Shown here: in pieces, positions 2,643-35,909 of the stretch | How positions within the stretch are numbered: the stretch's first letter is position 1 | How the letters are laid out: each line of letters opens with the position of its first letter | IMG/VR virus record: IMGVR_UViG_3300013122_000008 | Location: 1 to 35,909 of that record | DNA length: 35,909 bases | Strand: one strand, 5' to 3' | DNA from: a virus | Translations under genes and position numbers: made by a program | The notes under the pieces: model-generated | What the model was told of the DNA's origin: nothing | The model's input: only the letters and a program-made list of their open reading frames with translations | The model's database searches: none

Positions 2643-3866
2643 TTATCCTACAAAGTTATTGATAATAGAGCCAGCAACTGACAAAAATTGCATTTGAATT
2701 AGTCTTGCGTTTATATATGGTGGTTCTTGATTTTCTGTGCTTGTGTCAACTGATATTGAGCTAGTAGAAGAATTAGAGCCAGCACTTGTTGTTCCAGCGT
2801 GTGAATGAGAGCCAGACATCCCATTACTTCCACCGTTTCTATATGCCCCTGTATAAGTCGCTGTTGAAGAAGAATAAGAGTGAGTATGTGATGATCCAAC
2901 GTGAGAATGAGTCAGAGCAGAATGTGTGTGAGTATTACTGCCACCAGTAGATAATGCACCACCGCTTGTCTGACCTTTGATATAAATATTGCTATACCCA
3001 AGATCAGTCCAGCCTATAGGTAAAACACTTTCTGTATATAAGGCTATATCGCCTACTTTCGGGATAGAATTACTTGTTATTTTCCAAAAATGCATTTGTC
3101 TATACGCTACGTCTTGAGTAACAGATGATAGATTATCACTATTACTAACAGTTTCCGAGTGCGAACCAAAATAAATATCGTGCGAATGTTGTCTAATAAT
3201 AATGCTATCTGTTTCACCACCGCCAAGAGCAAAACTAGAAACATTGCCACAATTAGCTCCTGCGTGTTCGTGATATAAAGTGTGCGAGTGACTAGACGAG
3301 TGATTATGCGTACTTACAGATGCATTACCGCCAGCATTTTGACCAGTTCCAGCTCCTTTCATATATTTGCCATTTAAGCTATCAAAATGAGTTGAGTTTT
3401 CTCTGTTACTAGTATCGTTTCTAATTGCGATCCCATTTATCGGATACAAATTGTACTTATCGCTTTTAATAAAAATTAACTCATATCTAGATAATTCATT
3501 AGTAGCTGTTCCAATAGTCAGACTTGACGAGCTACAAGTTTGACCAGTCATACCGCCAGAAGTTACAGAGGCGTGTTCGTGAGGTGAGGGATAAACGTCA
3601 TAAGGTGGTGCGTCCTTGTGTCTTCCGTCTGTTTTTACTGTGTTTCCACCGCTAATTGTGCCTGTTGAATGAGTGTGTCCGTTAGATGAGAAAGTATGAG
3701 AGTGAGCAGAATTAGTGTGTGTGTGAGTAGTTGCACCACCAGTACTAGCCCAATTAGAAGTAGTTATTTTTGGGTATTTTCCATCAAATCTAGTGTCTCT
3801 ACTCCACCCGCTAGGAATGTCTGCGTGATTGCCGTCAAAGGGAATTACAATATTGGGGCTAAGCGT
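2643..3866 (-). CDS. His-rich tail fibre/collar protein with apparent ACG start
   Basis: 407 aa if translation starts at ACG (3866-3864). The frame is open from there down through the first ATG at 3551, and an AAAAGGAG Shine-Dalgarno sits five bases before the ACG; there is no in-frame ATG, GTG or TTG start in between. The 105 extra residues match the rest in style. Three repeated modules, each with a GG or AGG segment followed by clusters of HxH (THTH, HSHT, THNH), occur at about residues 40-65, 180-205 and 325-350. Modules 1 and 3 carry a GW lead-in. In T4 gp37 such HxH clusters bind iron along the fibre. The C-terminal EPPYINARLIQMQF is typical of phage tail-collar domains. It probably mediates host recognition. 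Confidence 0.75.
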   Translation of the reverse strand, partial: TLSPNIVIPFDGNHADIPSGWSRDTRFDGKYPKITTSNWASTGGATTHTHTNSAHSHTFSSNGHTHSTGTISGGNTVKTDGRHKDAPPYDVYPSPHEHASVTSGGMTGQTCSSSSLTIGTATNELSRYELIFIKSDKYNLYPINGIAIRNDTSNRENSTHFDSLNGKYMKGAGTGQNAGGNASVSTHNHSSSHSHTLYHEHAGANCGNVSSFALGGGETDSIIIRQHSHDIYFGSHSETVSNSDNLSSVTQDVAYRQMHFWKITSNSIPKVGDIALYTESVLPIGWTDLGYSNIYIKGQTSGGALSTGGSNTHTHSALTHSHVGSSHTHSYSSSTATYTGAYRNGGSNGMSGSHSHAGTTSAGSNSSTSSISVDTSTENQEPPYINARLIQMQFLSVAGSIINNFVG

Positions 3867-3868
3867 AT

Positions 3869-12666: not shown

Positions 12667-12885
12667 TTATTCCTTATCGTTATTTAATATCGCAACATTT
12701 CTAACTTTGGCTCTCTTGCGTTTATGCTTTCTTTTGCTTTTTAGCTCGTCTAATGGCTCATTTTCGTCTTTGTTGTCTAATTCCGCAATATACCTGTTAC
12801 TAATCCCTATCGGCTGTCCTTGATAGATTACATTCGGTTGAAACAATAAATTATTAACAAAGACTCTCTGGGTAACTTTAAACAT
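12667..12885 (-). CDS. Small basic protein after the capsid gene
   Basis: 72 aa. The beta-like N-terminus (KVTQRVFVNNLLFQPNVIYQGQPIG) is followed by a Lys/Arg cluster (KSKRKHKRKRAKVRN). The Shine-Dalgarno GGAAAGG is four bases from ATG. The N-terminal part resembles small proteins found between capsid and connector genes in HK97-like phages. The role is unknown; nucleic acid or head binding is possible from charge. Confidence 0.65.
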   Translation of the reverse strand: MFKVTQRVFVNNLLFQPNVIYQGQPIGISNRYIAELDNKDENEPLDELKSKRKHKRKRAKVRNVAILNNDKE

Positions 12886-12927
12886 TTTACCTTTCCATAA
12901 TTTCTTAGTCTTGTAGTCTGTTCATTT

Positions 12928-12950
12928 CAGGGGGTAGGCAATACCCCCTG
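12928..12950 (-). terminator. Perfect hairpin after the capsid gene
   Basis: CAGGGGGTA and TACCCCCTG form a perfect nine-base-pair stem with a five-base loop, in the 76 bp between the capsid stop and the next start. Outside it, GTCTG and CAGAC can pair as well. No T-tract follows, so it may be a partial terminator, an RNA-processing or stability element that raises capsid mRNA relative to downstream genes, rather than a strong terminator. Confidence 0.55.
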
Positions 12951-24167: not shown

Positions 24168-24599
24168 TTATCCTTTCATTTGGTTAAGTTTGGTAATGAG
24201 TTTGGCAAGATGTTTCAATTTGCTGTTCTGTATTGCATTCTCAACATTTGGATCATCACTCTCAAATCCGTGTGGCGTTAGTTGGTTGGTCGTTAGTTTC
24301 TCCACATCATCAATTACTCTTTGGCGTTCATCGGCTATAAGCTCTGTTAGTCGGTTGATCCAAATATCAGGGTCAAGCTCTACAGGCATTAGAGGAGAAT
24401 TCAACAACATTCTGAGGTCGTTAATAAAATCTTGCATCTCTATTGACACTGTCTGTATTTGTTCGACCTCGATGCAATCGCATGGTTTTTTACATTCATC
24501 GCAAATCCAGTATACGGTTTGACCTCTGCTAGCGTTTGGGTCACTTATTCTGTAAGTGCTTTTACAGCATTTGCTCACTGTCTGTATTTGTTTAGTCAT
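24168..24599 (-). CDS. Zn-ribbon small protein with shared helix and LNQMKG end
   Basis: 143 aa from ATG 24599, which overlaps the upstream stop as ATGA; an earlier in-frame ATG (24635) has no Shine-Dalgarno. SKCCKSTYRI and WICDECKKPCDCIE (up to residue about 45) suggest zinc binding. Then ADERQRVIDDVEKL, a helix shared with two neighbours, and a C-terminus KLNQMKG. It belongs to the cassette-like array of genes with repeated boundaries. No known function. Confidence 0.6.
   Translation of the reverse strand: MTKQIQTVSKCCKSTYRISDPNASRGQTVYWICDECKKPCDCIEVEQIQTVSIEMQDFINDLRMLLNSPLMPVELDPDIWINRLTELIADERQRVIDDVEKLTTNQLTPHGFESDDPNVENAIQNSKLKHLAKLITKLNQMKG
24299..24329 (-). repeat. 31-bp direct repeat, copy 1
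   Basis: Identical to 24730-24760 over 31 bases. It encodes RQRVIDDVE in the gene at 24168-24599. A degenerate third version lies near 25363-25388. Confidence 0.85.
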
Positions 24600-24976
24600 T
24601 GTGTTCCTTTCATTTGGTTGAGTTTGGCTTTGCATTTTTCTACTATGGCGTTTGCTAATTCAACATCCATTTCTTTACGACTGTTTTCTTTTGTAGTCCA
24701 GCCACCAGCAACGGCTTCTACCAACCAACTCTCCACATCATCAATTACTCTTTGGCGTTCTTGTTTTCTAGCCTCAGCAGTTGCGGTGGCTATCATTTTT
24801 TGTATTTCACTTACTAGCGGTTCAATTCTCCAGTCATAAATCCCACAACCTCCACATTGTTTGCACTTGTTTTCGCCATTCATGCCACCACCAGTACACT
24901 TGTCACACACTAGACCCCACATATTTTTCTTAATCATTTCTTCAATTTTCACTTCTTCCGTCAACTCATTTGGCAT
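24596..24976 (-). CDS. DnaJ-type zinc-finger small protein with LNQMKG end
   Basis: 126 aa from ATG 24976 (AAAGG at correct spacing); the ATG at 24988 would carry its own Shine-Dalgarno inside the gene. CDKCTGGGMNG and CKQCGGCG give a CxxC...CxxC zinc pair with DnaJ-like glycines (about 17-38). A later helix ARKQERQRVIDDVESWL is shared with 24168-24599, including an identical 31-bp DNA stretch. It ends CKAKLNQMKGTQ. Confidence 0.6.
   Translation of the reverse strand: MPNELTEEVKIEEMIKKNMWGLVCDKCTGGGMNGENKCKQCGGCGIYDWRIEPLVSEIQKMIATATAEARKQERQRVIDDVESWLVEAVAGGWTTKENSRKEMDVELANAIVEKCKAKLNQMKGTQ
24730..24760 (-). repeat. 31-bp direct repeat, copy 2
   Basis: Second identical copy, encoding the same RQRVIDDVE helix in the gene at 24596-24976. 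The pair could support homologous recombination that deletes or exchanges the intervening cassette. Confidence 0.85.
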
Positions 24977-24984
24977 TTGACCTT

Positions 24985-25263
24985 TCATTTGGTTGAGACA
25001 ACTTCAATTTTAACTAATTGATACTCTCTAGCTCCATCAAATTCGTGTTCTATACTTCCTCCCAAAAAAGTGTTGCCAGTCCATTGAAAAGTGCATATCG
25101 TGCTTATTGGCGATTTCATTAAATCAGCGTTGTTTTTACTACCAAAAATACTGTAAGCCTGAATTGGTTGAGACATCGCTAAACTAAACTCTTTCCCTGT
25201 TTCCTCTGGGACTTCCATTACTCCGTTTAGCTTGTTGTTGAATGCTCTTAGAACTATTTTCAT
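24985..25263 (-). CDS. Small hypothetical protein
   Basis: 92 aa, start at 25263 overlapping the upstream stop (ATGA). It is mixed alpha-beta (MKIVLRAFNNKLNGVMEVPE, ISTICTFQWTGNTFLGG, QLVKIEVVSTK). No cysteine pair. Its end carries the same 17-bp boundary element as its neighbours but in a different reading frame (ends VVSTK). No family recognised. Confidence 0.6.
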   Translation of the reverse strand: MKIVLRAFNNKLNGVMEVPEETGKEFSLAMSQPIQAYSIFGSKNNADLMKSPISTICTFQWTGNTFLGGSIEHEFDGAREYQLVKIEVVSTK

Positions 25264-25511
25264 CTTACCCCTTTCATTTGGTTAAGAACTCCAATTAATC
25301 TGTTGAGAATATATTCTTTCGTTACTCCAAACTCACCAAAGTTTTCAATGTGCTTTTCTAACACTCCAATTACTCTTTTGCGTTCTTGTTCCACCCTTGC
25401 GTCTTTAGCCTCGTTGATCTTGTTCCAAACGTCTTTGCCATTTGGGAGACGATAGACTTCGGTACAGCACCAGTCCCATAAATCTTCCATTGAATAATTT
25501 TGTTTTGTCAT
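25260..25511 (-). CDS. Small protein of the LNQMKG array
   Basis: 83 aa, start 25511 in an ATGA overlap. N-terminal helix (SMEDLWDWCCTEVYRL), then ARVEQERKRVIGVLEKHIE, a degenerate version of the helix in 24168-24599 and 24596-24976, and a C-terminal LNRLIGVLNQMKGVR-type end. Probably a divergent relative with the Zn part replaced. Function unknown. Confidence 0.6.
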   Translation of the reverse strand: MTKQNYSMEDLWDWCCTEVYRLPNGKDVWNKINEAKDARVEQERKRVIGVLEKHIENFGEFGVTKEYILNRLIGVLNQMKGVR

Positions 25512-25792
25512 TTTGATCCTTTCATTTGGTTGAGTTCTGATTCGATTTCCGATAACCCATAAGGTTCAATTCCTCCAATTAGGTATTTGTCAAAGTAATA
25601 ACCAAAATCATGCACGAGGGACTTTGCTAGTATCTCGGCTCGTTCTAGAAAGAAACGTCTATATTCGGGCGATCTATCTTGATCATGGTAATTGCGAAAA
25701 GCATTGGTTATTAAGATTGCTTTTTCCTCCAAACGTCCGAGGTCTGCTGGTTGTAGTTCTTCCTTTGGTTGTAGTTCTTCCTTTTTGTTCAT
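25508..25792 (-). CDS. Small helical protein of the LNQMKG array
   Basis: 94 aa. N-terminus has an exact six-residue duplication (KEELQP twice), encoded by an 18-bp tandem repeat (25749-25784). The rest is helical (LGRLEEKAILITNAFRNYHD, RFFLERAEILAKSLVHDFGYY). It ends ELNQMKGSK. The next gene's start overlaps its stop. No family recognised. Confidence 0.6.
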   Translation of the reverse strand: MNKKEELQPKEELQPADLGRLEEKAILITNAFRNYHDQDRSPEYRRFFLERAEILAKSLVHDFGYYFDKYLIGGIEPYGLSEIESELNQMKGSK

Positions 25793-25948
25793 TTATCCTT
25801 TCATTTGGTTGAGTTTACTCTGGTCGCACGTTTTTATTTTCTTATATAATTTTCTCAATTCAACACTTTGGTTTATTTCTAACTCTCCAAAAATATATTC
25901 TATTTCTTTTTTAAATTTTTCAAAAGATAATCCTGATTTTTCGTTCAT
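25793..25948 (-). CDS. Small protein of the LNQMKG array
   Basis: 51 aa, start 25948 with GGGAGGAC; overlap ATGA with the upstream gene. Contains EKFKKEIEYIFGELEI and RKLYKKIKT, a helical charged protein, ending SKLNQMKG. Below usual ORF cut-offs but well supported by ribosome binding site, gene spacing and the shared end. Confidence 0.55.
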   Translation of the reverse strand: MNEKSGLSFEKFKKEIEYIFGELEINQSVELRKLYKKIKTCDQSKLNQMKG

Positions 25949-27368: not shown

Positions 27369-27401
27369 TTTGTCCTTTCTATTGTTATTTTTATTAAGTT
27401 C

Positions 27402-27454
27402 TTAGAGGTGGTGGGGGGTTTTTGCCTGCCCAACTACTAATCCCCCACCTCTAA
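27402..27454 (-). terminator. GC-rich long hairpin between RlpA-like and coiled-coil genes
   Basis: TTAGAGGTGG, a three-base insert and GGGGG pair with CCCCCACCTCTAA, giving about a 13-bp interrupted stem with a 20- to 24-base loop. It fills most of the 90 bp between two genes. There is no T-tract at either end, so strong intrinsic termination is not certain; attenuation or RNA protection is possible. Confidence 0.5.
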
Positions 27455-28488: not shown

Positions 28489-28809
28489 TTACTCAAGTGG
28501 CTTAAAAGTCTTAACGCATTGACTTAGTGGTTTTTCCTCAAAGTATAAGTCTCTCTCAATTTTCATGCCTAAAGGTAATTTAATTTCTTCTAGTTCTTCT
28601 AATGAAAAAGTACCAAACTCATCATTCCAATCACTGAATATTGACACATAGCCAAAAAATACTTTTTCATCTTCCCCGTATTCAGTAGCAAACCAAGTAC
28701 CAGCCCCAATTGGATTAAAAAACTTAGCAACTACAATGGGGTCTTTTACTTTTTCTTGATAACCAACTTCTCTAAATCTTTTAATAAGTTCTTTTGTAAG
28801 TAATTTCAT
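28489..28809 (-). CDS. DUF2958-like protein
   Basis: 106 aa. The order LLTKELIKRFREVG..., DPIVVAKFFNPIGAGTWFATEY, then FFGYVSIFSDWNDEFGTFSLEELEEIK and GMKIERDLYFEEKPL is the DUF2958 pattern. These proteins are widespread on plasmids and phages beside ArdC-like genes. The exact role is unknown. It is the second gene of the pair with the ArdC-N-like gene, from promoter B. Confidence 0.82.
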   Translation of the reverse strand: MKLLTKELIKRFREVGYQEKVKDPIVVAKFFNPIGAGTWFATEYGEDEKVFFGYVSIFSDWNDEFGTFSLEELEEIKLPLGMKIERDLYFEEKPLSQCVKTFKPLE

Positions 28810-28810
28810 T

Positions 28811-29116
28811 TTAATTTTCCTTTACAGCTACTAATACCTCTGTTTGATCTAGATTAAAAACATGAGCAAATCCTAATGGAGCTGAATAATTTTTAATCTT
28901 ATTATCAACTTTGTCTAATTCAGAAAACTCTTGAAAACCTCTAAAAACAGATATTGATTTGCTACCTTTTTTGATCTTTAATCCTGAGTTTCTAGCCTGC
29001 AAAAATGTCAACCAAGCGTCTGAATTAAAATTAAACTTATGTTTAGCACTCATTAAATCCACTTGATTTTGTCCTTGATATTCTTTTTTAGTGATGTAAT
29101 TGTATTGTTTGTTCAT
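28811..29116 (-). CDS. ArdC N-terminal-like ssDNA-binding protein
   Basis: 101 aa. SDAWLTFLQARNSGLKIKKG, then SKSISVFRGFQ..., and C-terminal APLGFAHVFNLDQTEVL follow the N-terminal ArdC domain (TFLQA.. G..VKKG.K...V). Full ArdC also has a C-terminal metallopeptidase, absent here, so this is a stand-alone N-domain or truncated relative. ArdC of plasmids counters type I restriction and binds ssDNA; DUF2958 next door is typical. CGAAAGGCAAAT RBS precedes ATG. Confidence 0.75.
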   Translation of the reverse strand: MNKQYNYITKKEYQGQNQVDLMSAKHKFNFNSDAWLTFLQARNSGLKIKKGSKSISVFRGFQEFSELDKVDNKIKNYSAPLGFAHVFNLDQTEVLVAVKEN

Positions 29117-32821: not shown

Positions 32822-32957
32822 TTTCTAAAACCTCTCTTGCTAATTCTATGATCTTTTCTTGATACTTTTTCTTTTTGGCAATTATTCGTTTCATCAATAA
32901 TTTTATTTGCCTTTCTGTTGCGATCCGCTTTTGAAGTAAATTATTTTTATCGATCAT
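32703..32957 (-). CDS. Small coiled-coil protein
   Basis: 84 aa, start 32957 overlapping the ATPase stop by 11 bases, with a GGGGG Shine-Dalgarno. The N-terminal 60 residues are charged helix (LLQKRIATERQIKLLMKRII, KKKYQEKIIELAREVLENA); the last 25 (LCLDGNTSDGTIFGNYEEKV) lose helical character where the other frame stays helical. That change suggests that reading should move to the +1 frame near residue 60. Confidence 0.5.
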   Translation of the reverse strand: MIDKNNLLQKRIATERQIKLLMKRIIAKKKKYQEKIIELAREVLENARRNEQQYLAQSQQEEKRLCLDGNTSDGTIFGNYEEKV

Positions 32958-33840
32958 CTTTTCCCCCTATCGCATAAAAGTTACCAGTCTCCGCAAAATG
33001 TACTCTAAAGCCTAAGTGAGATTTTTCGGTGTATCTTGATTTGTCCACCCAGATCAAAATACGCCTTTCGTTATCATCAATCACCGACACGCCCAAATCT
33101 TCATCAACCTCAATCGGTCTATTTAAACTCATGACATAATCGCATTTTTGAGTTATCGCTTTGCTCCCAGCAATGTCTGTTCTTCTTAGTATTTTTTTGT
33201 TTGCCGCCGCACCGTTGGGCTGTGCATAAACCATTAGCCAGATATCTTGATATTCTTTACAAAGGTTTTGAAAGCATTTCGCCCAATTTTCAGTAACTTT
33301 CTGATTTCTTGAGTTGTCGTTAGCTCCAAATAACTCGTGAAGATGATCAAACTGGAATATCCTAAACCCAAGTTTGTAATATTCTTTGACCCAATTAGCA
33401 AAGTTTTCGGGGGTTTGTTTGCTTGTGTCCTCTGAATAGAAGTCATCAACTAAAATTACATCTTTTGACATTAACTCTATCGCCTCTTTTGGATTAACTC
33501 CACTTTCTAATTTTGCTTTGGTCAAGTCTGACCACTGCTGGAGTATGCGTTGTCTAACCATTTGCTCTGGCATTTCAAGAGAAAAGTAAATAGATGTTTG
33601 CTGATCGTGCCTGTAAAACATTCTAGCAAGCCATAAAGCAAACCAAGATTTGCCTGTACCTGGGTTTCCTAAAATAACGTAATAACCGCAAGGGAAGCCA
33701 AAGTCATTGTCAATGTAAGATATTCCTGTGTTGAGAGCATCTTTTTTTTCAACCTTGGTTAGTTCTTTAACAGACCTTGACGAATATAATTTTTCTGCAA
33801 TCTTTTCATCTGTGATTGTATTTTTGGTTTTTTTAATCAT
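32947..33840 (-). CDS. DnaB-like/RecA-superfamily ATPase, putative replicative helicase
   Basis: 297 aa from ATG 33840 after AAAGGAGCAAAT. Walker A GNPGTGKS (58-65), a sensor-type SLEMPEQMVRQRI, Walker B-like DVILVDDFY and RIFQFDHLHEL, then AQPN and a late FHVRHFAETGNFY-like end. This matches the DnaB C-terminal helicase domain, but the DnaB N-terminal primase-interacting domain is missing, so it may need a loader or be a different RecA-like ATPase. It follows the DUF4373 replication protein. No primase or polymerase is encoded nearby. Confidence 0.8.
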   Translation of the reverse strand: MIKKTKNTITDEKIAEKLYSSRSVKELTKVEKKDALNTGISYIDNDFGFPCGYYVILGNPGTGKSWFALWLARMFYRHDQQTSIYFSLEMPEQMVRQRILQQWSDLTKAKLESGVNPKEAIELMSKDVILVDDFYSEDTSKQTPENFANWVKEYYKLGFRIFQFDHLHELFGANDNSRNQKVTENWAKCFQNLCKEYQDIWLMVYAQPNGAAANKKILRRTDIAGSKAITQKCDYVMSLNRPIEVDEDLGVSVIDDNERRILIWVDKSRYTEKSHLGFRVHFAETGNFYAIGGKDDR

Positions 33841-33854
33841 ATTTGCTCCTTTTT

Positions 33855-34610
33855 TCAATATCCGCCCTTAAATCTACCCTCTTTCATCATTTTCACAATC
33901 CACTTGTCCTCATCAGTTGGCTTTGGTTTGGCTTTTTCTTTTTCCTCTGCTTGTTTGTCTGAAATTGTTTTTACATAGTGCCACCTAATTGAATTATTGA
34001 TCCACTTGTTGATTGTTGCCTCTACGTTTTGAATTTCAATGTTTTTCTCTGAAGACTTAGCTAACATATCCTCTAAACAATAGACAACATCTTTTTCTCT
34101 TATGTCAAACTTTTTGGCTAACTCCACAATTTTTGGATTATCCAATTCCTTGTTTTCAAAAAAAGAAAAAACAATTTTTTTATTTATTAAATAAATATTA
34201 TTTTCTTTCTTTTCCTTTCCTTTCCTTTCCTTTATAGTATTACTATCGTATTTTGATCGTAATACGTTCGTATTCTTTTTATTCCATCTCGCCATAACAG
34301 ACTCTTTTGCTTTTTGTGATTTTTCTATTCTTTTTTGCAATCTTTGATTGATTGAGTTGCTCCAAAAGTACGTTTTATCGTGCTCAAAACATACGCTAAT
34401 TATTTTTCGTAATACGTTCGTATCACAGCGCAAAGAAAATGCATAACTATTTAATTTGTCTAGTTTAAGTTTTCCATTTTCCTCATAAAGCATTTCAACA
34501 ATGCACCAAAAAATACCGATACCTTCCATTCCAAAAGTCATCAAAATATCTTGTAATTTAGTATCATTTCTAGCGTTGTAGTCGTGAGAAAAATAATAAC
34601 TATCTTTCAT
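33855..34610 (-). CDS. DUF4373 (Lin1244/Lin1753-like) replication protein
   Basis: 251 aa from ATG 34610 after AAAGATT; the earlier in-frame ATG lies in the upstream gene. SYYFSHDYNARNDTKLQDIL then GIGIFWCIVEMLYEENGKL and NSYAFSLRCDTNVLRKII are the DUF4373 N-terminal domain. A variable basic linker (about 110-140) contains a run of GGAAA repeats in the DNA. The C-terminal part has a DnaD-like helical region (KIVELAKKFDIREKDVVYCL, ...NKWINNSIRWHY). It probably loads the helicase or binds the origin. Confidence 0.8.
   Translation of the reverse strand: MKDSYYFSHDYNARNDTKLQDILMTFGMEGIGIFWCIVEMLYEENGKLKLDKLNSYAFSLRCDTNVLRKIISVCFEHDKTYFWSNSINQRLQKRIEKSQKAKESVMARWNKKNTNVLRSKYDSNTIKERKGKEKKENNIYLINKKIVFSFFENKELDNPKIVELAKKFDIREKDVVYCLEDMLAKSSEKNIEIQNVEATINKWINNSIRWHYVKTISDKQAEEKEKAKPKPTDEDKWIVKMMKEGRFKGGY
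34211..34230 (-). repeat. Pentanucleotide repeat (TTTCC)4 in a coding region
   Basis: Plus-strand TTTCC four times, so GGAAA on the coding strand, within the DUF4373 gene (encodes about KERKGKEKKEN). Five is not a multiple of three, so gain or loss of one unit would shift the frame. Confidence 0.75.
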
Positions 34611-34791
34611 AATCTTTCGTCCTTTCTTCCATTCGTCCATCAACTGGGATAAGTATCACCCCTTTATACTGTGAATTGCCACAAGTCGGACAAGGGTGCT
34701 TATCAAATCCCACCGTACCACGACCATTACAATTTGGGCAAATCTGCGCAACAAATTGTGGTTTTACTTTTATAGTTTGGATATTATCCAT
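34600..34791 (-). CDS. Small zinc-finger protein (DnaJ-type)
   Basis: 63 aa from ATG 34791 after GGAAGGAC; the longer frame to 34818 lacks a good start. AQICPNCNGRGTVGFD and HPCPTCGNSQYKG give a CxxC-CxxC zinc site with GxG as in DnaJ fingers. It overlaps the DUF4373 gene by 11 bases. May be an assembly or redox-related accessory protein; function unknown. Confidence 0.7.
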   Translation of the reverse strand: MDNIQTIKVKPQFVAQICPNCNGRGTVGFDKHPCPTCGNSQYKGVILIPVDGRMEERTKDYER

Positions 34792-35092
34792 CCGTCCTTC
34801 CTTTCTATTCAAACACAATTAAATACTATTTTTCATAAAAAATAAACTATCAAAATCTATAACAAACTATATTAAAATATATTGTCTTAAACTCAATTAA
34901 ACTTCTTTTTCTATATTTTGAAAATGGGCGTTTTTGGGCTAATTGTTTAGAAACAAGGGTTTCTACCTTTTCCATATTCTAAGCCGATTTTGAGGTATCT
35001 AAACGGCTTAGAAGCTATAATTTCTTAATGGGATAACAACGTACGCTGACGGATCAGTAACCTCGTTACCCTACTAAAAAATCATAATGAAA
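34792..35092. other. Structured non-coding region (candidate origin or RNA)
   Basis: No supported gene in 301 bp. It contains several perfect or near-perfect hairpins: TAGAAAC/GTTTCTA with a 4-base loop (34948-34965), TTCTAAGCCG/CGGCTTAGAA with a 17-base loop (34977-35013), a CTGA/TCAG stem with a UCCG loop and a GTAAC/GTTAC stem (about 35045-35075). The part at 34840-34910 is very AT-rich. It separates the two first early genes from the replication genes. Confidence 0.5.
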
Positions 35093-35395
35093 CTATTCTA
35101 CTTTTTCACCAAGCAATTCACAAATCCTGCCATAGATCAGAGGCGAGTAATAAAATCCAACTCTTTCTTTTATTAAAGCCATTTGATCTACTGTTAGATC
35201 AGCTTCGTCACTTTTCCATATTTTTAGACCAATTTGAAAAGCTTTATTTTTAATCTCAGTGGTTAGTCTATGTTCTTGATCCTCAGTGTTGATTGCATTT
35301 GAAATAATATCTCTTGCTTTAATTGGTTTTTTGTCTTGATCTAAAATAGGTTTGTTTTCAAAACTTAAGAGATCAACGTTTGTATTTATTTTCAT
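35093..35395 (-). CDS. Small early protein
   Basis: 100 aa. Starts MKINTNVDLLSFENKPILDQ, then KPIKARDIISNAINTED, helical KAFQIGLKIWK and TVDQMALIKERVGFYYSPLIYGRICELLG. Similar-looking proteins occur in the early regions of other phages, but no function is known to me. Upstream lie AGGATAAT then ATG, a weak Shine-Dalgarno. Confidence 0.65.
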   Translation of the reverse strand: MKINTNVDLLSFENKPILDQDKKPIKARDIISNAINTEDQEHRLTTEIKNKAFQIGLKIWKSDEADLTVDQMALIKERVGFYYSPLIYGRICELLGEKVE

Positions 35396-35450
35396 ATAAA
35401 ATATATTATCCTACTTCTTTACCAAAACACAAGATTACAAACTAGATCAA

Positions 35451-35714
35451 TTATTTAGCGTCCACAATAAACGCTTTAATGCTGGCTAATTCTGCCTCAA
35501 GTTCTGCCACTCTTTCGTCAAGAGCCTTCTTGGTCACAGCAGTCACCTCATCTGATAGTTGCTTTATTACAGGAGGAGTGACGGTATTATCCATCTCAAA
35601 CCGCTTCTCATAGATAGCGTAAGTGAGGGTTTCCTCACTCTCCTCGTTTGTTTTTTGGACTTTGTTTATGAGTCCTTTTTCTTTTTTATCTGCGTATTCT
35701 TTTAGGTTATACAT
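35451..35714 (-). CDS. Small early coiled-coil protein
   Basis: 87 aa with a near-perfect Shine-Dalgarno (AAAGGAGGTGA at 35722-35732). Basic N-terminus (YNLKEYADKKEKGLINKVQK), an acidic middle and a C-terminal coiled coil (KALDERVAELEAELASIKAF). First gene after the promoter at 35763-35790. No family recognised. Confidence 0.65.
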   Translation of the reverse strand: MYNLKEYADKKEKGLINKVQKTNEESEETLTYAIYEKRFEMDNTVTPPVIKQLSDEVTAVTKKALDERVAELEAELASIKAFIVDAK

Positions 35715-35762
35715 TTTTTATTCACCTCCTTTTAAGCTGATGTTAATAATGTTGTTGCTACA

Positions 35763-35790
35763 ATTTTACTCTTTAAATCCTCGTATGCAA
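35763..35790 (-). promoter_or_regulatory. Leftward early promoter
   Basis: Minus strand TTGCAT (35790-35785), a 16-base spacer and TAAAAT (35768-35763), upstream of the strong Shine-Dalgarno of the first leftward gene. Unlike promoters A-C it lacks TGCCTA. Confidence 0.55.
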
Positions 35791-35806
35791 GTCTGACATG
35801 TTGCGA

Positions 35807-35834
35807 GGTAACTCCCAATGTGTTACAGTGTTAC
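35807..35834. promoter_or_regulatory. Tandem GTGTTAC repeat, operator-like
   Basis: GTGTTAC occurs twice, one base apart (35820-35826, 35828-35834), and with GGTAAC at 35807-35812 also gives an inverted repeat. It lies between the leftward promoter and the divergent rightward gene, a natural place for a regulator of both. Confidence 0.4.
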
Positions 35835-35835
35835 C

Positions 35836-35909
35836 ATGCCAATAATAAATTGTGATGTCTGCCAAGAAACTTTTCACCGCAGACCATCCGCTGTAAATAA
35901 ACGGAACTA
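35836..35909 (+). CDS. Truncated rightward gene, zinc-finger/HNH-type N-terminus
   Basis: The only supported plus-strand gene. ATG at 35836 opens INCDVCQETFHRRPSAVNKR and runs off the window edge. A CxxC followed by F..RPS..K resembles the start of phage HNH or zinc-ribbon proteins. No clear Shine-Dalgarno (GAGG lies far upstream). Partial gene; family call is weak. Confidence 0.5.
   Translation, partial: MPIINCDVCQETFHRRPSAVNKRN

Follow-up and report, generated by a model that had tools for sequence, protein, structure and literature searches.

The window, that is, the whole 35,909-bp stretch of DNA analyzed here, is an IMG/VR virus record classed as linear, in which the minus strand is the coding strand for all plausible genes and about 92% of the contig is coding. 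A non-coding gap of 274 nt without a convincing ORF is located at 34819-35092, ahead of the initiator and helicase genes, which agrees with the initial annotation of a non-coding region near replication genes. Its description of a genome with almost no other gaps holds for the high coding density and for most of the remaining clear gaps, which are shorter than 274 nt, but not for a 317-nt gap at 3552-3868, which may contain a missed ORF. The AT-rich stretch that had been reported was also found, as A+T reaches 88% across 34820-34879, at one end of the gap. Read along the minus strand, the ORF 35395-35093 is followed by the hairpins, the AT-rich linker, a Shine-Dalgarno site, the Zn-ribbon ORF, the Lin1244_N initiator, and the DnaB_C helicase (Table 1), beyond which lie genes for a Rad52-type annealing protein, a PD-(D/E)XK nuclease, and SSB. 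Thus, the order proposed earlier, from AT-rich DNA through hairpins to a helicase-loader-like gene, is not that of the transcript, where the hairpins precede the AT-rich linker, and the gene beside the hairpins (35093-35395) is not recognizable as a helicase loader.

Table 1. Features of the hairpin-bearing gap and the adjoining replication genes, in minus-strand order.
Feature	Coordinates	Strand	Description	Basis
Gene upstream of leader	35093-35395	-	Co-directional; no family match	
H1	35015-35087	-	30 pairs, UCCG cap	Predicted fold, -28.0 kcal/mol alone
H1 tip	35046-35057	-	CUGA-UCCG-UCAG, UNCG-type tetraloop	Predicted fold and direct reading
H2	34977-35013	-	15 pairs (UUCUAAGCCG...CGGCUUAGAA)	Predicted fold, -14.5 kcal/mol alone
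H3	34948-34965	-	7 bp, CCUU loop (UAGAAAC-CCUU-GUUUCUA)	Predicted fold, -4.5 kcal/mol alone
AT-rich linker	34800-34940	-	Weakly structured; between hairpins and Shine-Dalgarno/ATG at 34791	
Zn-ribbon gene	34600-34791	-	Small CxxCxGxG Zn-ribbon protein; first gene after leader	ATG 34791, GGAAGGA upstream
Replication initiator	33855-34643	-	Replication initiation protein	Lin1244_N; phrog_2562
Iteron copy 1	34407-34423	-	ATACGAACGTATTACGA, inside initiator gene; candidate origin	Exact 17 bp
Iteron copy 2	34257-34273	-	ATACGAACGTATTACGA, then weaker 11-bp-spaced units to 34236	Exact 17 bp
AT-rich and purine tract	34160-34235	-	AAAGGAAAGGAAAGG...; candidate unwinding element beside iterons	
Replicative helicase	32947-33858	-	DnaB_C type	phrog_19, 6.5e-34

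The Zn-ribbon ORF was matched by DnaJ_CXXCXGXG at 1.5e-4, below the cut-off, and its product also shows a weak likeness to anti-TRAP (NCBIfam RtpA, E 6.7e-6, below the cut-off) and to DnaJ Zn domains. A homologue with 54% identity is present in the related locus L058, and a Zn-ribbon-like gene stands immediately ahead of rep in locus L043. No Phage_integrase or Resolvase match, as would be looked for near an integrase attachment site, was found in the contig, which may be incomplete.

The gap contains a 41-aa ATG ORF at 34850-34975, a length that shuffled sequence reaches rather seldom (P 0.016). Its codon score is -0.13, compared with a null of -0.20 +/- 0.10 for ATG ORFs of the shuffled leader and +0.07 to +0.36 for the neighboring genes, and 24% of random ORFs of the same composition match it; neither a Shine-Dalgarno site nor a homologue was found for it. 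Because its codon usage resembles that of non-coding DNA, the ORF was rejected, and a gene has probably not been overlooked here.

Three hairpins occur within 143 nt of the gap. Four had been counted initially; the hairpins themselves are present, and the UCCG-loop stem, which had been correctly noted as resembling a stable RNA tetraloop, turned out to be the tip of H1. H1 is made up of 15 + 9 bp around one A-A mismatch, followed by 2 + 4 bp, and starts 5 nt past the stop codon of ORF 35093-35395. The minus strand of 34944-35087 folds with a dG of -48.6 kcal/mol (z -6.81; 0 of 200 dinucleotide shuffles as stable), with the MFE structure equal to the centroid, while the plus strand of the same segment reaches z -3.18; for the longer segment 34900-35092, z is -5.66. 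The hairpin region ranks first among 399 minus-strand windows of 193 nt across the contig and only seventh with 110-nt windows, indicating that the run of hairpins is unusual, while single hairpins of equal stability exist elsewhere. On these folding statistics, the predicted hairpin structure is real and beyond chance expectation. High scores are also seen in several coding stretches (z -4 to -6 in 110-nt windows), and the sense strand of 35551-35705, inside ORF 35451-35714, gives z -4.8 and -6.1 in such windows. As well, further long intercistronic hairpins without U-tracts are carried on the minus strand at 27385-27440 and 12880-12950.

Several known kinds of element were sought in the region. 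An intrinsic terminator was rejected, as no minus-strand terminator-like site is present in 33800-35909, and the tails behind H1, H2, and H3 are not U-rich and hold no U-tract. No Rfam family matched anywhere in the window at the gathering threshold, and at a relaxed threshold the best sub-threshold hits had E of about 0.6-1, far under the cut-off; no tRNA or tmRNA was detected. A promoter-like match lies at 35109-35081, overlapping H1, and such matches occur at chance level (11 found, compared with 8.5 +/- 2.8 expected). In its predicted fold, H1 presents a long, nearly continuous dsRNA stem between co-directional genes, as is looked for in an RNase III site.

H1 has six non-Watson-Crick pairs, each of which is G-U and none A-C when read as sense RNA, the A-C pairs falling on the opposite strand, whereas an inverted repeat serving a purpose in DNA would be expected to show both kinds of wobble equally often. 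This asymmetry (about 0.03, two-sided) is a modest signal, as the strand was picked after its better folding had been seen. Together with the UNCG-type loop and the composition-corrected difference between the strands (z -6.8 versus -3.2), it favors a role as RNA rather than as cruciform DNA, although the region also folds well with DNA parameters (z -4.1). The initial annotation had suggested an origin or a non-coding RNA, and it is the RNA half of this suggestion that these observations favor.

The origin half was not borne out for the gap, where no iterons or repeat array were found (34800-35092). GC skew shows no sign change, although none would be anticipated in a contig whose genes share a single strand. 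Instead, iterons were identified inside the initiator gene, flanked by a stretch of 88% A+T at 34160-34219, and a 16-mer repeat is rarely reached in shuffled versions of this rep gene (P 0.001). Related initiator genes share the core and contain ATGCGAACGCATTGC at comparable positions, usually around nt 131-159 and 338-385 of the coding sequence. With at most two mismatches, this motif was found at 27 sites inside rep (24 rep genes searched) versus one site outside in about 270 kb, so the direct repeats recur in related initiators and are almost missing from other sequence. The iteron family ATRCGAACGYATTRC is present in the rep of ten related loci (L125, L126, L128, L130, L133, L135, L138, L141, L143, and L145). 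The motif pattern was derived from part of the rep genes, and in the five loci that were not used for it (L125, L126, L133, L143, and L145) every match falls in rep. About ten of the related initiators lack the motif, which therefore marks a sub-group. Moreover, its inverted symmetry is kept via paired changes, with ATACG-AA-CGTAT in the window versus ATGCG-AA-CGCAT in the others, and several iteron arrays step by 11 bp, which is not a multiple of three, so that a protein repeat does not explain them.

In phage lambda, the ori consists of iterons and an AT-rich/purine tract inside initiator gene O. The rep gene of the window has a similar layout, as it likewise holds iterons together with an AT-rich or purine tract, but differs in that the initiator is of the Lin1244_N / phrog_2562 type and the iteron is ATRCGAACGYATTRC, with units of about 11 bp. 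With the repeats lying in rep, an origin in the gap was dropped as the leading idea, and the predicted replication origin is likelier to be rep-internal, lambda-O-like, at 34236-34423, about 700 bases from the hairpins. The conserved iteron in Lin1244_N/phrog_2562 initiator genes would thus predict the replication start site in such phages.

Relatives of the leader were searched for widely. About 100 related loci were collected with the terminase and Rad52 and 32 with the initiator, and among the relatives from the terminase, Rad52, rep, and Zn-ribbon scans, BLAST detected no leader homologue. A covariance model of the leader structure, a single-sequence model of short reach, had no match in 60 sources; a 17-mer scan of viral contigs with the leader gave three unrelated chance matches, and protein-guided scans using the flanking genes returned no relatives of the leader locus. 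Nothing meaningful was matched by the leader in phages and plasmids and nothing in genome contigs, among which no terminase relative was found either. Loci L043 and L058 keep the Zn-ribbon gene preceded by a non-coding leader, and the folding of these leaders exceeds chance only by a small margin (z of -1.77 and -1.83). Among 200 intercistronic gaps taken from about 40 related loci, 25 have a long stem (at least 18 bp), compared with 23 after shuffling, and this absence of enrichment gives no class-level support for processing hairpins, and no general class is claimed here. Long hairpins of unrelated sequence are carried in gaps of related phages (L053:9753-9890, L044:1060-1150, L049:6100-6170, and L074:9580-9690), those of L053 and L044 adjoining a Rad52-type gene.

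The most likely role of the hairpin array is that of an ordinary phage expression element, serving in mRNA processing or as a leader. More specifically, and with somewhat less than an even chance, the gap may represent a structured intercistronic or 5'-leader RNA segment of an early/replication transcript read from the minus strand. Transcription would pass through the gap, and H1, modeled as 24 nearly uninterrupted base pairs or over two helical turns, is for this length a plausible RNase III substrate and probably an RNase III-type processing hairpin. It would separate the upstream gene from the replication module through RNase III-type processing, or at least protect the mRNA end, with RNase III or another nuclease acting on the hairpins. 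H2 and H3 could then form a stable 5' leader that caps or protects the 5' end of the replication mRNA, behind which about 120 nt of unstructured, AT-rich linker would extend as far as the Shine-Dalgarno site of the operon for the Zn-ribbon protein, initiator, and helicase. As H1 begins so close behind the stop codon, ribosomes that complete the upstream gene would occupy the base of this hairpin and may govern how it folds. The leader might tune the expression of the replication genes. If real, it would provide an uncharacterized phage lineage with a defined RNA element that precedes the replication genes.

In the early mRNAs of phage T7, the R-sites (R1.1 type) are hairpins processed by RNase III. 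Like H1, they are long imperfect hairpins between co-directional genes, exceed two helical turns, and lack a U-tract, while in the present phage, where the structure is known from a predicted fold, two more hairpins follow H1, and no sequence relation to the T7 sites was seen. The minimum dsRNA length reported for RNase III is about 11 bp in E. coli and greater in S. meliloti, whose enzyme cleaved a 30-bp duplex and not a 16-bp one (PMC6121014). HK022 put RNAs measure about 70 nt, comprise two stem-loops, and are located near early promoters (PMC9378689). The predicted leader shares with them the tandem arrangement of stem-loops upstream of early phage genes; it differs in spanning about 144 nt with three hairpins and in having no Rfam match. 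The gap resembles the RNA-based origins of mycobacterial prophages (PMC7157519) and ColE1 RNAII in being non-coding, presumably transcribed, and near replication functions, but the phage encodes an initiator and a helicase itself and carries rep-internal iterons, and no parABS cassette was seen beside the gap.

Other readings of the segment were weighed against that of a processing or leader RNA. It could be a cis-acting regulatory leader, such as a put-like antitermination RNA or an attenuator, governing read-through of the long early operon or the replication genes: it precedes the replication operon, a put-like RNA could correspond to H2-H3 or to the tip of H1, and a tertiary contact is conceivable between the H2 loop ACCUC and the complementary GAGGU in H1. 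However, Rfam offers no match even at the relaxed threshold, there is no terminator nearby to regulate, and a promoter directly ahead is not established, so we consider this reading unlikely. A free-standing sRNA of about 150 nt, either with its own promoter or cut from the operon mRNA and targeting RNAs of the phage or host in trans, would suit the compact and well-defined fold and could draw on the promoter-like match at 35109-35081; since such matches are at chance level and this one overlaps H1, and since no intrinsic terminator or homologue was found, this seems rather unlikely.

An accidental fold in functionless, AT-rich non-coding DNA would fit with the absence of demonstrable conservation and with the coding stretches of high z mentioned above, yet the z of -6.8, not equaled in any shuffle, in the sole long clear gap of a compact genome, as well as the strand-specific wobbles, make such an accident improbable. 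The hairpins could also act in DNA, extruded beside the AT-rich unwinding stretch as a replication origin or single-strand initiation site. The 88% A+T stretch of the gap adjoins the initiator gene, the fold with DNA parameters is stable, and there are mycobacteriophages whose origins depend on RNA (PMC7157519); against this, the gap is without iterons, while those with the shared core are in the initiator gene with an 88% A+T stretch of their own, the wobble asymmetry favors RNA, and the skew does not change, which renders a DNA role distinctly improbable. A new phage structured-RNA class in replication control, for instance one priming or activating the rep-internal origin or sensing the initiator/helicase level, was given very little credence.

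Finally, two further observations were made in the window. The small ORFs at 24168-25815 have common exact repeats of 14-31 nt (AACTCAACCAAATGAAAGGA at gene ends, and GAACGCCAAAGAGTAATTGATGATGTGGAGA) and look like diverged tandem paralogues. At 28489-29116, a DUF2958 protein adjoins an anti-restriction-like protein (phrog_7245), and the two are likely a counter-defense pair.
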